Source of the DNA: Microbacterium oleivorans | Lineage (GTDB): Bacteria; Actinomycetota; Actinomycetes; Actinomycetales; Microbacteriaceae | DNA length: 64,000 nucleotides | Reading direction: 5' to 3' | NCBI RefSeq assembly: GCF_001691565.1 | Contig: NZ_MAYO01000002.1 | Span: 126,272-190,271 of the forward strand | Shown here: positions 22,510 to 25,878 of the stretch, piece by piece | Position numbering within the stretch: position 1 is the first letter of the stretch | Layout: every line of letters starts with the position of its first letter | The notes under the pieces: model-generated | Database searches by the model: none | What the model saw: only the letters and a program-made list of their open reading frames with translations | What the model was told of the DNA's origin: nothing | Made by a program: the position numbers and the translations under genes

Positions 22510-23082
22510 TCACGGCACCGGCTGCGGGAGCACCGGCCACGACTGCGGCGAGCGGTCGTCCGTGCGGAGGAGGGCCGCGATCCAGCCGTCGTGGCGACCG
22601 CGCGGATCGCTGAGGCCCTGACGGAGAAGCCCCTCGTACCGGAACCCGAGTTTCTGCGCGACCCGTGCCGACGCGTGATTCCCGACGACGGCGCGCCATT
22701 GGAGCCGGGCGAGCGAGAGGGGCTCCGCGAACCCGAACTCCACGACGGCGGTCGCCGCTTCGGTGAGGTAACCGTGGCCGCGGGCCGCGGCATCCATCCA
22801 GAACCCGATCTCGGCAGCGCTCTGCTTCTCGACGCGGTGCAGGCCGACCATGCCGATCCAGCGGCCGTCGAGACGGACGGCCCAGGTGAGCTCGCTCTCG
22901 TCGTCCCACCACCCGGTCGCCTTGGCGACGAACTCCTCCGCGTGCCGCCGCTCGTAGGGCGAGGGGAGCGTCGTCCACCGCGGCACCTCAGGATCCTGCG
23001 CCGCCGCCGTGATCGCATCGATGTCGTCCGCCGTCGGCACGGACAGTCCGAGCCGCTCGGTCCGCAGAGTCACCGGTTCCAT
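22510..23082 (-). CDS. GNAT acetyltransferase (RimJ/RimL type)
   Basis: 190-residue N-acetyltransferase with the RimL-like opening LRTERLGLSVPTADDIDAI and the acetyl-CoA loop in AEIGFWMDAAARGHGYLTEAA followed by ARVAQKLGFRYEGLLR. Relatives acetylate ribosomal protein N-termini or small amines; substrate unknown here. A TAGCGT box 6 nt before the ATG indicates a leaderless promoter that lies at the edge of the repeat-rich, gene-free stretch 23083-23413. Confidence 0.85.
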   Translation of the reverse strand: MEPVTLRTERLGLSVPTADDIDAITAAAQDPEVPRWTTLPSPYERRHAEEFVAKATGWWDDESELTWAVRLDGRWIGMVGLHRVEKQSAAEIGFWMDAAARGHGYLTEAATAVVEFGFAEPLSLARLQWRAVVGNHASARVAQKLGFRYEGLLRQGLSDPRGRHDGWIAALLRTDDRSPQSWPVLPQPVP

Positions 23083-23088
23083 GCCCTC

Positions 23089-23094
23089 ACGCTA
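23089..23094 (-). promoter_or_regulatory. -10 box of the GNAT gene
   Basis: TAGCGT on the reverse strand, 6 nt before the ATG at 23082. Confidence 0.45.
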
Positions 23095-23105
23095 CCGGCG
23101 GTCGT

Positions 23106-23180
23106 GTGCCGTTCTCCGGACATCCCGGGTGACGGAGCGTCAATGCCACCTCCGTGGCTCGGTCTTCCGGAGAACGGGAC
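23106..23180. repeat. 75-bp palindromic element A
   Basis: Left end GTGCCGTTCTCCGGA (23106-23120) and right end TCCGGAGAACGGGAC (23166-23180) are inverted repeats matching at 14 of 15 positions; the 45-bp centre is not shared with the other copies but contains GCCAC-4nt-GTGGC. One of three copies with identical ends and identical total length around the nuclease gene at 23414. No target-site duplication is visible. The gene-free stretch 23083-23413 (331 bp) holds this element, element B and a 65-bp GC-rich separator. Confidence 0.9.
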
Positions 23181-23245
23181 GCGGGTGGGCGACCTGCCCG
23201 CCCGGTGGCCCTCGGCGCAACACGCCAAGCCGGATGGTCCGGCAT

Positions 23246-23320
23246 GTGCCGTTCTCCGGAGGGAACGCACCTCGCAGCCGGAGGTGTCGCTTCCCGCAGC
23301 GCTGCTCCGGAGAACGGTCC
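23246..23320. repeat. 75-bp palindromic element B
   Basis: Ends GTGCCGTTCTCCGGA (23246-23260) and TCCGGAGAACGGTCC (23306-23320). The 45-bp centre forms a nested hairpin (GGGAA...CACCTC...GAGGTG...TTCCC), so the whole element can fold into one long stem. It lies 93 bp before the nuclease start. Confidence 0.9.
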
Positions 23321-23413
23321 GCGTTTTCTGCACCTCGCCGATTGCCACTTCGGGATTGGCGTCACCTGTGGAGAGGGCCTGAGGTCGATTGCGCACCGGC
23401 CAGGGTGGGCGGC

Positions 23414-24280
23414 ATGTGGGAGAGCGAACGTCGGGCGTTCCGGCAGCGGGCCGCGGATGTCCTTGCAACCCCGGTAGTGAGCACTGCGCAGCTCCGGGCA
23501 GAAGGGGTGAGCAAGCGCGCGATCGCTGCGGCGATCCGGGAGGGGCGGCTGATTCGTGCGCGCCGGGACAACTACCTTGCCGCCGGCACCGACCCGGCGC
23601 TGGTCGCCGCCGTCGAGGCAGGAGGAGTGCTGAGTTGCGTGAGCGCGTTGCGGCTCTTGGGAGTCTTCGTGCTCGACGGCGGGGGTCTCCACGTCCTCGT
23701 GCCGCCCCACTCGACTCGGCTGAAGCCCTCCGCCGACAAGCGGATCGTGCGTCACTGGCTCCCGTCGTCGGACGGCCCTTTCCCTCGCCGAGCGTGCGCT
23801 CACCCCATCGACACGCTCGCGCACGCGGTGCGCTGCCAGCCTCCGCGGGCCGCTGTGGCCTCGCTGGACAGTTCGCTGCACACAGGGCTGATCCGACCGA
23901 GCGACGTGACGGAGGTGTTCGCTCTCCTCCCGAAGCGGTTCGCGACGCTGGTGCCGCTACTTGATGGCCGGGCGGAGTCCGGGCCGGAAACGCTCGCTCG
24001 ACTTCTCATACGCGGCATCACCAGGGATGTCGACCTGCAGGTGCGCATCGATGGGGTGGGCAGGGTCGACCTCCTGGTGAACGGGTGGCTGGTGATCGAA
24101 TGCGACAGCGAGGCTCATCACCTCGGGTCGGAGGCATACCGTTTCGATCGCACCCGAGACCTCGCGTTGGCCGAGCGCGGATACACCGTCCTGCGGCTGA
24201 CAGCCGCCGACATCATGTGGCGACCCGAGCGGGTGGCCTCGGCGGTTCGCGGCCTGCTCCGCTCCCGGCGTCGGGTGTGA
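23414..24280 (+). CDS. DUF559/Vsr-like endonuclease with AbiEi-type N-terminus
   Basis: 288-residue protein. Residues about 1-60 resemble the AbiEi antitoxin-type winged HTH (VVSTAQLRAEGVSKRAIAAAIREGRLIRARRDNYLA); the C-terminal 90 residues form a Vsr-like PD-(D/E)xK nuclease fold with Asp219, then Glu229-x-Asp231 (VIECDSEAHH) and FDRTRDLALAERGYTVLRLT. Such genes are numerous in Microbacteriaceae and usually annotated as type IV TA or endonuclease-domain proteins; no toxin partner is adjacent. A -10-like CAGGGT lies 7 nt before the ATG. It is flanked by elements A and B upstream and C 10 bp after the stop. Substrate and role unknown. Confidence 0.82.
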   Translation: MWESERRAFRQRAADVLATPVVSTAQLRAEGVSKRAIAAAIREGRLIRARRDNYLAAGTDPALVAAVEAGGVLSCVSALRLLGVFVLDGGGLHVLVPPHSTRLKPSADKRIVRHWLPSSDGPFPRRACAHPIDTLAHAVRCQPPRAAVASLDSSLHTGLIRPSDVTEVFALLPKRFATLVPLLDGRAESGPETLARLLIRGITRDVDLQVRIDGVGRVDLLVNGWLVIECDSEAHHLGSEAYRFDRTRDLALAERGYTVLRLTAADIMWRPERVASAVRGLLRSRRRV

Positions 24281-24290
24281 GTCCGTCAGC

Positions 24291-24365
24291 GTGCCGTTCT
24301 CCGGATGGATCCCACCACCCCGGCACCTCGGCTCTGTCACCGACCGTTCATCCGGAGAACGGCAC
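24291..24365. repeat. 75-bp palindromic element C
   Basis: Perfect 16-bp terminal inverted repeats GTGCCGTTCTCCGGAT (24291-24306) and its complement (24350-24365), with a centre unlike A or B. It starts 10 bp after the nuclease stop and lies between convergent genes, so it could also terminate transcription. Confidence 0.92.
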
Positions 24366-24381
24366 GCAACCGGCCCCGTCG

Positions 24382-24419
24382 CCCCGAACGCTCAGCCCTC
24401 GGGGCTGAACCCCGAACGC

Positions 24420-24432
<13 letters not shown>
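24382..24432. repeat. Direct repeat duplicating the 3' end of the SseB-like gene
   Basis: A 23-bp sequence (CCCCGAACGCTCAGCCCTCG plus GGG) occurs at 24382-24404 and again at 24410-24432. The second copy contains the last codons and stop of the gene at 24420; the first lies past the stop. Each copy has inverted ends CCCCGA/TCGGGG and can fold into a small hairpin. Confidence 0.85.

Positions 24433-25878
<1,446 letters not shown>

Follow-up and report, generated by a model that had tools for sequence, protein, structure and literature searches.

Vsr-like nucleases with an AbiEi-like part and matched flanking palindromes in Microbacterium: a candidate enzyme-plus-DNA-repeat system

REPINs, as presented in the parts of PMC3116915 and PMC8266576 that bear on them, are inverted REP doublets linked to an HUH transposase in the same genome (REPIN/RAYT systems, or REPtrons). 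Inverted repeats are also bound by the antitoxin AbiEi, which takes two 23-bp repeats 3 bp apart, and by Rv2827c, which takes pairs 13 bp apart with a cooperativity that differs from that of AbiEi (relevant part of PMC7319586). The domain MTES_1575, which underlies the Pfam family, takes its name from the HEPN superfamily paper (PMC3710099); the section on it presents a Vsr REase fold domain of a large multidomain protein and leaves palindromic elements unmentioned. The protein studied here, unlike that one, is a stand-alone protein of 288 aa with an AbiEi-like part. Within the parts covered of the open-access PMC literature (subscription papers and preprints lie outside it), we found no paper that connects DUF559, MTES_1575 or AbiEi-Vsr proteins with palindromic elements, and that literature yielded no described role for stand-alone DUF559/AbiEi-type nucleases. 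The nuclease with matched palindromes that we report here looks like a previously undescribed enzyme-plus-DNA-repeat system of Microbacterium and related actinobacteria.

We analysed a stretch of 64,000 nucleotides (the window) from the genome designated G000, in which the following features were placed:

23069..24690, no strand: imported block; left limit 23069-23100, right limit about 24570-24690
23106..23180, no strand: palindromic element 1, 75 bp, with 12-bp ends CCGTTCTCCGGA/TCCGGAGAACGG and a 45-bp centre
23246..23320, no strand: palindromic element 2, 75 bp, offset from element 1 by 140 bp (start to start)
23414..24280, + strand: nuclease gene (288 aa) between elements 2 and 3, with an AbiEi-like N-terminal part and a Vsr/DUF559-like nuclease domain
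24291..24365, no strand: palindromic element 3, 75 bp, 10 bp past the nuclease stop codon

The earlier note had described three elements of exactly 75 bp, with constant inverted ends, that box in a DUF559 nuclease, and this description held, coordinates included. All three elements start with GTGCCGTTCTCCGGA and close with its inverted copy, with 1, 2 and 0 mismatches in elements 1, 2 and 3, respectively, and the perfect arms of element 3 extend over 19 bp (24289-24307 and 24349-24367). The 15-bp length of the ends was chosen in the earlier note: an alignment of 21 elements of the window's type confines the invariant part to about 12 bp, and these inner 12 bp (CCGTTCTCCGGA / TCCGGAGAACGG) are free of mismatches in each of the three window elements. 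Throughout the 2.92-Mb genome CCGTTCTCCGGA occurs nine times, eight of them as the ends of four elements; a pattern search of the whole genome for CCGTTCTCCGGA N{40-60} TCCGGAGAACGG returned four places, all of them with centres of 45 bp, and gave no match when the pattern was reversed as a control. The fourth element is solitary and lies between amylase-like and Fpg/Nei-like genes (names read from the translations, with no family scan); 1.5 kb of sequence to either side of it showed no nuclease of the family. When the 15-mer end was searched with three mismatches in the window only, its count did not exceed that of shuffles (8 vs a mean of 5.15); the signal lies in exact pairing and spacing.

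We then examined the protein. Pfam matched it to DUF559 above the cut-off and to MTES_1575, AbiEi_4 and AbiEi_3_N each below the cut-off, AbiEi_4 being above it in the three paralogues scanned; the PADLOC match to AbiEi was weak. The structure model (mean pLDDT 92) is divided into an AbiEi-like part at about residues 21-183 and a Vsr/DUF559-like part at about 184-288. The former matched the AbiEi antitoxin 6y8q (Foldseek E 1.5e-4; rmsd 4.4 over 156 residues) with a Z of 7.2, which is within the range of a chance arrangement and with which Pfam and PADLOC agree weakly. The C-terminal domain matched 3hrl (Z 13.3, 1.7 Å, 90 residues), the homing endonuclease I-Bth0305I (3r3p; Z 12.5, 2.9 Å, 97 residues) and Vsr (1cw0; Z 10.8, 3.1 Å, 102 residues). 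Vsr and I-Bth0305I act on double-stranded DNA, and the homing endonucleases of the I-Bth0305I type belong to the EDxHD type. Furthermore, E192, Q209, D219, D231 and D245 are conserved in 120 of 121 family proteins, D249 in 119, R261 in 116 and H236 in 113, as expected for active enzymes. Such a fold together with conserved acidic and histidine residues is that of the Vsr/EDxHD nuclease superfamily, and we model the window protein as an AbiEi-like part joined to a Vsr-like nuclease. A PDB sequence search and an NCBIfam scan with the window protein gave no match; its VIA-align list contained no HUH fold, the list being uninformative either way.

The family is present in 57 of 59 genomes of the genus, and G000 itself encodes five further paralogues. 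Four of them are boxed by gene-specific palindromes, namely GCTTCGCGAGGAGATG (L017), ATGCAATAG (L018), CGGATTCGGA (L019) and ATGCACG (L015), and the fifth, L016, carries a degenerate pair around AGCGGAGAT with 72 bp on both sides. An exact k-mer test, applied to 94 of 95 loci (L071 was left out for its short flank), found a palindromic end of at least seven bases common to the upstream and downstream flanks in 48 loci, compared with 117 of 2000 mismatched pairs of an upstream and a downstream flank and 4 of 90 flanks that were shifted. With a mismatch-tolerant score (pass mark 60; 120 of 122 loci scored, L071 and L172 left out), 81 of the 120 genus loci had upstream and downstream palindromes with common gene-specific ends, whereas 57/1500 (3.8%) and 135/4000 mismatched pairs and 5/675 sliding control windows passed, two of these five being the same place. 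The 39 loci below the mark include L016, with a score of 57, and the window locus L014, which was mis-scored as a miss in both flank tests because the frame had been extended upstream and its domain start placed at 1089; L050, the nearly identical locus of M. oleivorans, reached 72/72. The palindromes are strongly supported, by this comparison of flanks, as cognate to their nucleases.

Element length was equal upstream and downstream within 1 bp in 71 of the 81 passing loci (exactly so in 62), L195 being too short to score; the difference was 17-20 in seven of the others, among which L067 and L091 have nested pairs 18-19 bp apart, and 11-21 in three. Between loci the lengths ranged from 52 to 100, in a scan limited to 50-100. 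Agreement in length carries less weight than agreement in ends, since 64 of the 135 passing mismatched pairs also agree in length within 1 bp, although many of these pairs may be related loci. Other families of the order, where the nuclease occurs in 57 of 119 sampled genomes and 25 of 56 genera, gave a similar comparison: 10 of 22 loci passed vs 2 of 462 mismatched pairs, some of the 22 coming from one genus and L276-L280 (genus or family) being kept out. A large proportion of these nucleases were shown in this way to be flanked by elements with their own end sequence, at equal length on both sides.

Some flanks carry additional motifs. Each arm at L019 contains the CGGATTCGGA motif twice, 19 bp apart and with one mismatch in one copy (1393-1468, 2410-2485), so that a 57-bp palindrome is nested in one of 76 bp both upstream and downstream of the gene. 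At L173, L183 and L018, one flank of the nuclease gene has additional cognate palindromes in tandem; downstream of L173, for example, two GCACAACGTCGC elements are 209 bp apart.

The type of element follows the nuclease. The pattern GTTCTCCGGA N{35-60} TCCGGAGAAC was found in 6 of 366 genus genomes (G000 4, G056 10, G337 13, G278 8, G161 2, G012 1), with no match for its reversed control in the same genomes. Its copies measure 65 or 66 bp among those listed for the first four genomes (75/76 bp for the whole element) and 56-57 bp in G161 and G012. Among the matches listed, the window nuclease is closest to those of G056 (M. oleivorans NBRC 103075; 99%), G337 (92%) and G278 (68%), followed by matches of at most 58%, and the four genomes with the window type at 75/76 bp, out of 366, are exactly those whose nuclease, among these matches, is at least 68% identical. 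Across 74 confident loci, the ends are about as alike as background where the proteins are less than 60% identical and become more alike beyond 65%; an exception is the pair L095/L088, with 85% protein identity and ends alike at 7/12. The genome G174, whose nuclease is 54% identical, has 75/76-bp elements with CCGTTCTCAGGA, a one-base variant, or near forms in those read, and elements of this type also surround its nuclease. A strict pattern for a further type (A) hit 3 of 366 genomes (G015 3, G105 2, G066 1), its reversed control matching once, in G238; such strictness makes it a poor second test of covariation, since there are mismatches in A-type ends and the copy of G000 at the site S1 escaped it. 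The earlier note had asked for ends at a fixed spacing beside nuclease genes and for their covariation with the nuclease clade; indeed, the spacing is fixed, flanking is far above chance, and covariation was found.

Elements of other lengths whose ends are of a TTCTCCGGAGA type, near those of the window in sequence, were seen at L053 (G012:C2) and at L112/L113/L119 (G161, G012). Their length is 56-57 bp in the strict pattern and 72 bp at L053, where the elements flank a different nuclease.

Further copies of the window's element are dispersed in the chromosome, from 4 to about 19 per genome. Above 45 bits, a covariance model built from 21 elements found 4 in G000, 11 in G056 and 15 in G337, with weaker ones besides, and most copies in G056 and G337 are located away from the nuclease. 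Of 11 solo elements in G056, three weaker ones included, orthologues in G337 exist for 10, two of them supported by a single flank; the G337 site S2 rests on its right flank, and L115 was not placeable there. The ends of nine orthologous elements (S7, S8 and S11 left out) differ at 2/216 positions and the flanks at 645/8462, a count biased towards conserved ends since the elements were found by them. The centres behave differently, being only 36-43% identical between ends of 92-100% identity in three of the six orthologous elements compared, one of the three being S2 with its one-flank placement. Among 55 elements of five genomes, sharing of the centre above 0.7 was limited to orthologues and tandem neighbours and included no dispersed pairs; recent copy-and-paste is therefore not seen.

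Copy number and occupancy vary between genomes as well. S7 has three tandem copies in G337 and one in G056 (orthology by one flank), and S10 has two in G337 and one in G056. The S8 element, of the window-like T type, is present in G000, G056 and G278 and absent in G015; S11 and S9, like S8, hold an element in one genome but lack it in others, the element-free sites not being clean at the base level, and no clean target duplication was seen by eye at S9, S11 or S8. At S5 the element lies inside a 616-codon frame of G056 whose translation reads as an ABC-type ATPase. This element and the palindromes of a third type are placed as follows:

L240:1501-1576 (G056 C1:314552): S5 element, with orthologues in L249 and L268
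L265:4531-4620, L273:18864-18953 and L262:11019-11110: GTATTCAGTCTC-type palindromes of 90-92 bp, at or near T-type positions of relatives

Different types can occupy one site. S1 holds a T-type element in G056, G337 and G278 and an A-type element, with ends GTGCCGAGTGCAGG, in G000 and G015, so that the end types differ between lineages (CCGTTCTCCGGA vs CCGAGTGCAGG); the two types take up identical base positions with an identical length of 75 bp, the A-type ends of G000 showing mismatches. The nuclease at trpS in G015 is likewise flanked by A-type elements, matching the type at S1. An unrooted tree of 2954 S1 flanking columns grouped G000 with G015 (96) and these two with G278 (100), so that one type change suffices at S1, and the T type would be ancestral there unless the root falls on the G000/G015 branch. 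It is unusual for end sequences to change while positions are conserved, and such a change can be tested. Furthermore, S5 is occupied by the T type in G056 and G337 and by the A type in G015. S2 carries the T type in G056 and the 90-92 bp GTATTCAGTCTC type in G015; S3 carries the T type in G056 and G337 and the GTATTCAGTCTC type in G000; at S7, a GTATTCAGTCTC-type element of G000 stands about 30 bp from the T position. For the GTATTCAGTCTC type no nuclease was identified, which makes these orphan elements. A further orphan is the complete A-type element beside S4 in the T-type genome G337, of which only one end is recognisable in G056. The mixture of types at these sites indicates that several types coexist and that replacement is incomplete.

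We propose that the window locus represents a large family of two-part chromosomal systems made up of a nuclease and paired palindromes, and we regard this proposal, its mechanism included, as reasonably probable. It is favoured by the common ends and lengths of the flanking elements, the covariation of type with nuclease, the conserved ends around swapped centres, the different types at S1, the tandem copies, the conserved active-site residues and the folds. Against it count the unlike centres of dispersed elements, the 39 loci below the mark of the flank test, the length agreement among mismatched pairs, close proteins with unlike ends, the low copy number (4 in G000), the orphan elements and the weak AbiEi match. 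The AbiEi-like part would read the ~12-bp ends as two inverted half-sites, their distance being set by the geometry of the protein, and two Vsr-like domains would thereby be brought onto one element; by analogy with the known antitoxins, this step is quite probably right. The nuclease would then nick or cut at the elements, and repair between element ends would follow, by which ends would be kept uniform, centres swapped or lost, and tandem copies made; for this second step, with these outcomes, we see about an even chance. A new nuclease allele would re-type existing sites through the same repair. It is also conceivable, though we put it forward tentatively, that this is a self-typing nuclease system independent of REPtrons, which stamps its own ends at fixed spacing and in which a new allele re-types the sites while their positions are inherited, so that the specificity of enzyme and sites would change together. 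The system is most likely a long-lived, semi-selfish resident.

The main rival is autoregulation alone. If the AbiEi-like part represses its own gene through the inverted repeats, with the nuclease acting elsewhere, the dispersed elements would be a small regulon; AbiEi and Rv2827c do autoregulate through paired inverted repeats (part of PMC7319586 on binding), elements lie upstream of the nuclease gene, and ends are conserved at dispersed sites. However, neither an element 10 bp past a stop codon, nor palindromes on both sides in 81 of 120 loci, nor the S5 element inside the ATPase-like frame takes an operator position, and almost all of the 121 proteins retain the catalytic residues, which makes this explanation unlikely. 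The elements might instead be miniature copy-and-paste transposable elements mobilised by the nuclease, in a strict REPIN/RAYT or MITE model. The flanked gene, the inverted pairs, the dispersed copies, the partial occupancy of S11, S9 and S8 and the transfer of a cassette (see below) would fit such a model, which nevertheless appears distinctly improbable in view of the unrelated centres of dispersed elements and the polymorphic sites without clean target duplication by eye. The earlier note had assigned the palindromes to the nuclease and compared the pair with REP/RAYT; the assignment was borne out by spacing, flanking and clade covariation, but not the movement, since the dispersed centres are unlike, the stem shows no compensatory excess, and the catalytic domain is like Vsr and I-Bth0305I and unlike a single-strand HUH nuclease. 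Nuclease-driven mobilisation would have to be supposed, the centres of the dispersed copies bearing no trace of a recent copying event.

Transcription terminators or mRNA-stabilising hairpins, unlinked to the nuclease, would account for the strong RNA folding of all three window elements (z about -5 to -6, + strand) and for the position of some elements just after stop codons. Against this, a simple consensus scan of the region found no terminator-like site and Rfam gave no match there, on which grounds both readings were rejected, and the ends are specific to the neighbouring nuclease. Across the 21 elements, compensatory changes in the stem outside the invariant ends did not exceed those of shuffles; the hairpin was for this reason rejected as a selected feature, and the ends look conserved as sequence. 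This explanation is very improbable and is contradicted by the nuclease-specific ends. Hardly any weight can be given to chance or to hairpins being plentiful anyway in a GC-rich genus: GC-rich hairpins are common and five of the 675 control windows pass, but 81 of 120 loci stand against 3.8% of mismatched pairs, eight of nine ends are at the exact 45-bp pairing genome-wide, and the reversed pattern control gave none, so that the controls contradict this reading.

Compared with the described systems, the proposed two-part system is an analogue of REPIN/RAYT (REPtron) in anatomy, which it resembles most, but it is built on an unrelated enzyme and is not a member. Like REPIN/RAYT, as portrayed in the relevant parts of PMC3116915 and PMC8266576, it has cognate palindromes beside the nuclease gene (81/120 vs 57/1500; 10/22 vs 2/462), inverted doublets with a variable spacer, dispersed copies, tandem clusters, enzyme-repeat co-evolution and a resident chromosomal gene. 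The doublet with a spacer was found here as well, whereas the enzyme is Vsr-like with an AbiEi-like part instead of an HUH Y1 tyrosine transposase, Pfam matching only DUF559, MTES_1575 and AbiEi models; the spacing here is tied to the enzyme, the dispersed centres are unrelated, and copies number 4, 11 and 15 in G000, G056 and G337 above 45 bits, not hundreds. A GTAG (or related) tetranucleotide at the ends is absent from the 21-element alignment of the window's type. It is the enzyme, the tag and the copy number that set the system apart from REPtrons. As for single-copy vertical inheritance, the nuclease stands beside trpS in many genomes, yet the cassette was imported in G000.

The N-terminal part resembles the AbiEi antitoxin by weak Pfam, PADLOC and fold matches, and the inverted repeat pairs at set spacing recall the recognition known for AbiEi (binding section of PMC7319586); unlike AbiEi of the type IV AbiE toxin-antitoxin system, it is fused to a nuclease, with palindromes on both sides and dispersed. 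No AbiEii nucleotidyltransferase toxin was found next to the window nuclease among the Pfam-scanned neighbours, and the locus is therefore not an AbiE system. The catalytic domain is like Vsr and I-Bth0305I in its fold (Z 10.8, 12.5) and its conserved acidic/His residues. Unlike a homing endonuclease, the gene was seen with no intron or intein and with its own sites elsewhere in the same genome; intact elements lie on both sides, and since the target is not split, this is not a homing gene. The likely substrates can be read from the DNA flanking each gene, which provides a large natural set of enzyme/site pairs. If the proposal is true, systems of an enzyme plus dispersed palindromes would have two unrelated origins, and there would be an independent case for asking what maintains REPIN/RAYT-type residents.

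Finally, we compared the GNAT/trpS site between genomes. Pfam identified the neighbours of the window nuclease as a GNAT protein, a 149-aa protein with no family and a class-I W/Y tRNA synthetase (tRNA-synt_1b). Between 23100 and 24599, identity to M. oleivorans NBRC 103075 is 97-100% in all 100-bp bins, vs 0.71-0.99, mostly 0.8 to 0.93, in the bins flanking the block; against G015, the block shows 0.40-0.71 up to 24399, with flanks of about 0.90. By this identity profile, the window cassette was imported from a donor similar to M. oleivorans. The presence or absence of the whole block, which the earlier note had proposed to compare here, came out as an import in G000, but the near relative G015 is not empty: a nuclease of 56% identity, flanked by palindromes of its own, occupies the same place there, and we infer that the cassette with its three elements probably replaced a resident allele like that of G015. 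One import event is insufficient to attribute the transfer to the nuclease. Plasmid or phage carriage was rejected, only 7 of 72,556 plasmid and 1 of 50,697 phage records matching, all below 60% identity. Directly after element 3, inside the imported block, the 23-bp sequence CCCCGAACGCTCAGCCCTCGGGG occurs in two exact copies at 24382-24432, with starts 28 bp apart; G337 and G015 lack this tandem pair. Nucleases of the family lie directly beside trpS in many genomes of the genus, as if long resident there with alleles that change fast; among others, they are found at the following positions:

G034:C1:2207608, nuclease adjacent to trpS
G017:C14:231258, nuclease adjacent to trpS
G037:C2:573811, nuclease adjacent to trpS
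G048:C7:42017, nuclease adjacent to trpS
G050:C1:81634, nuclease adjacent to trpS
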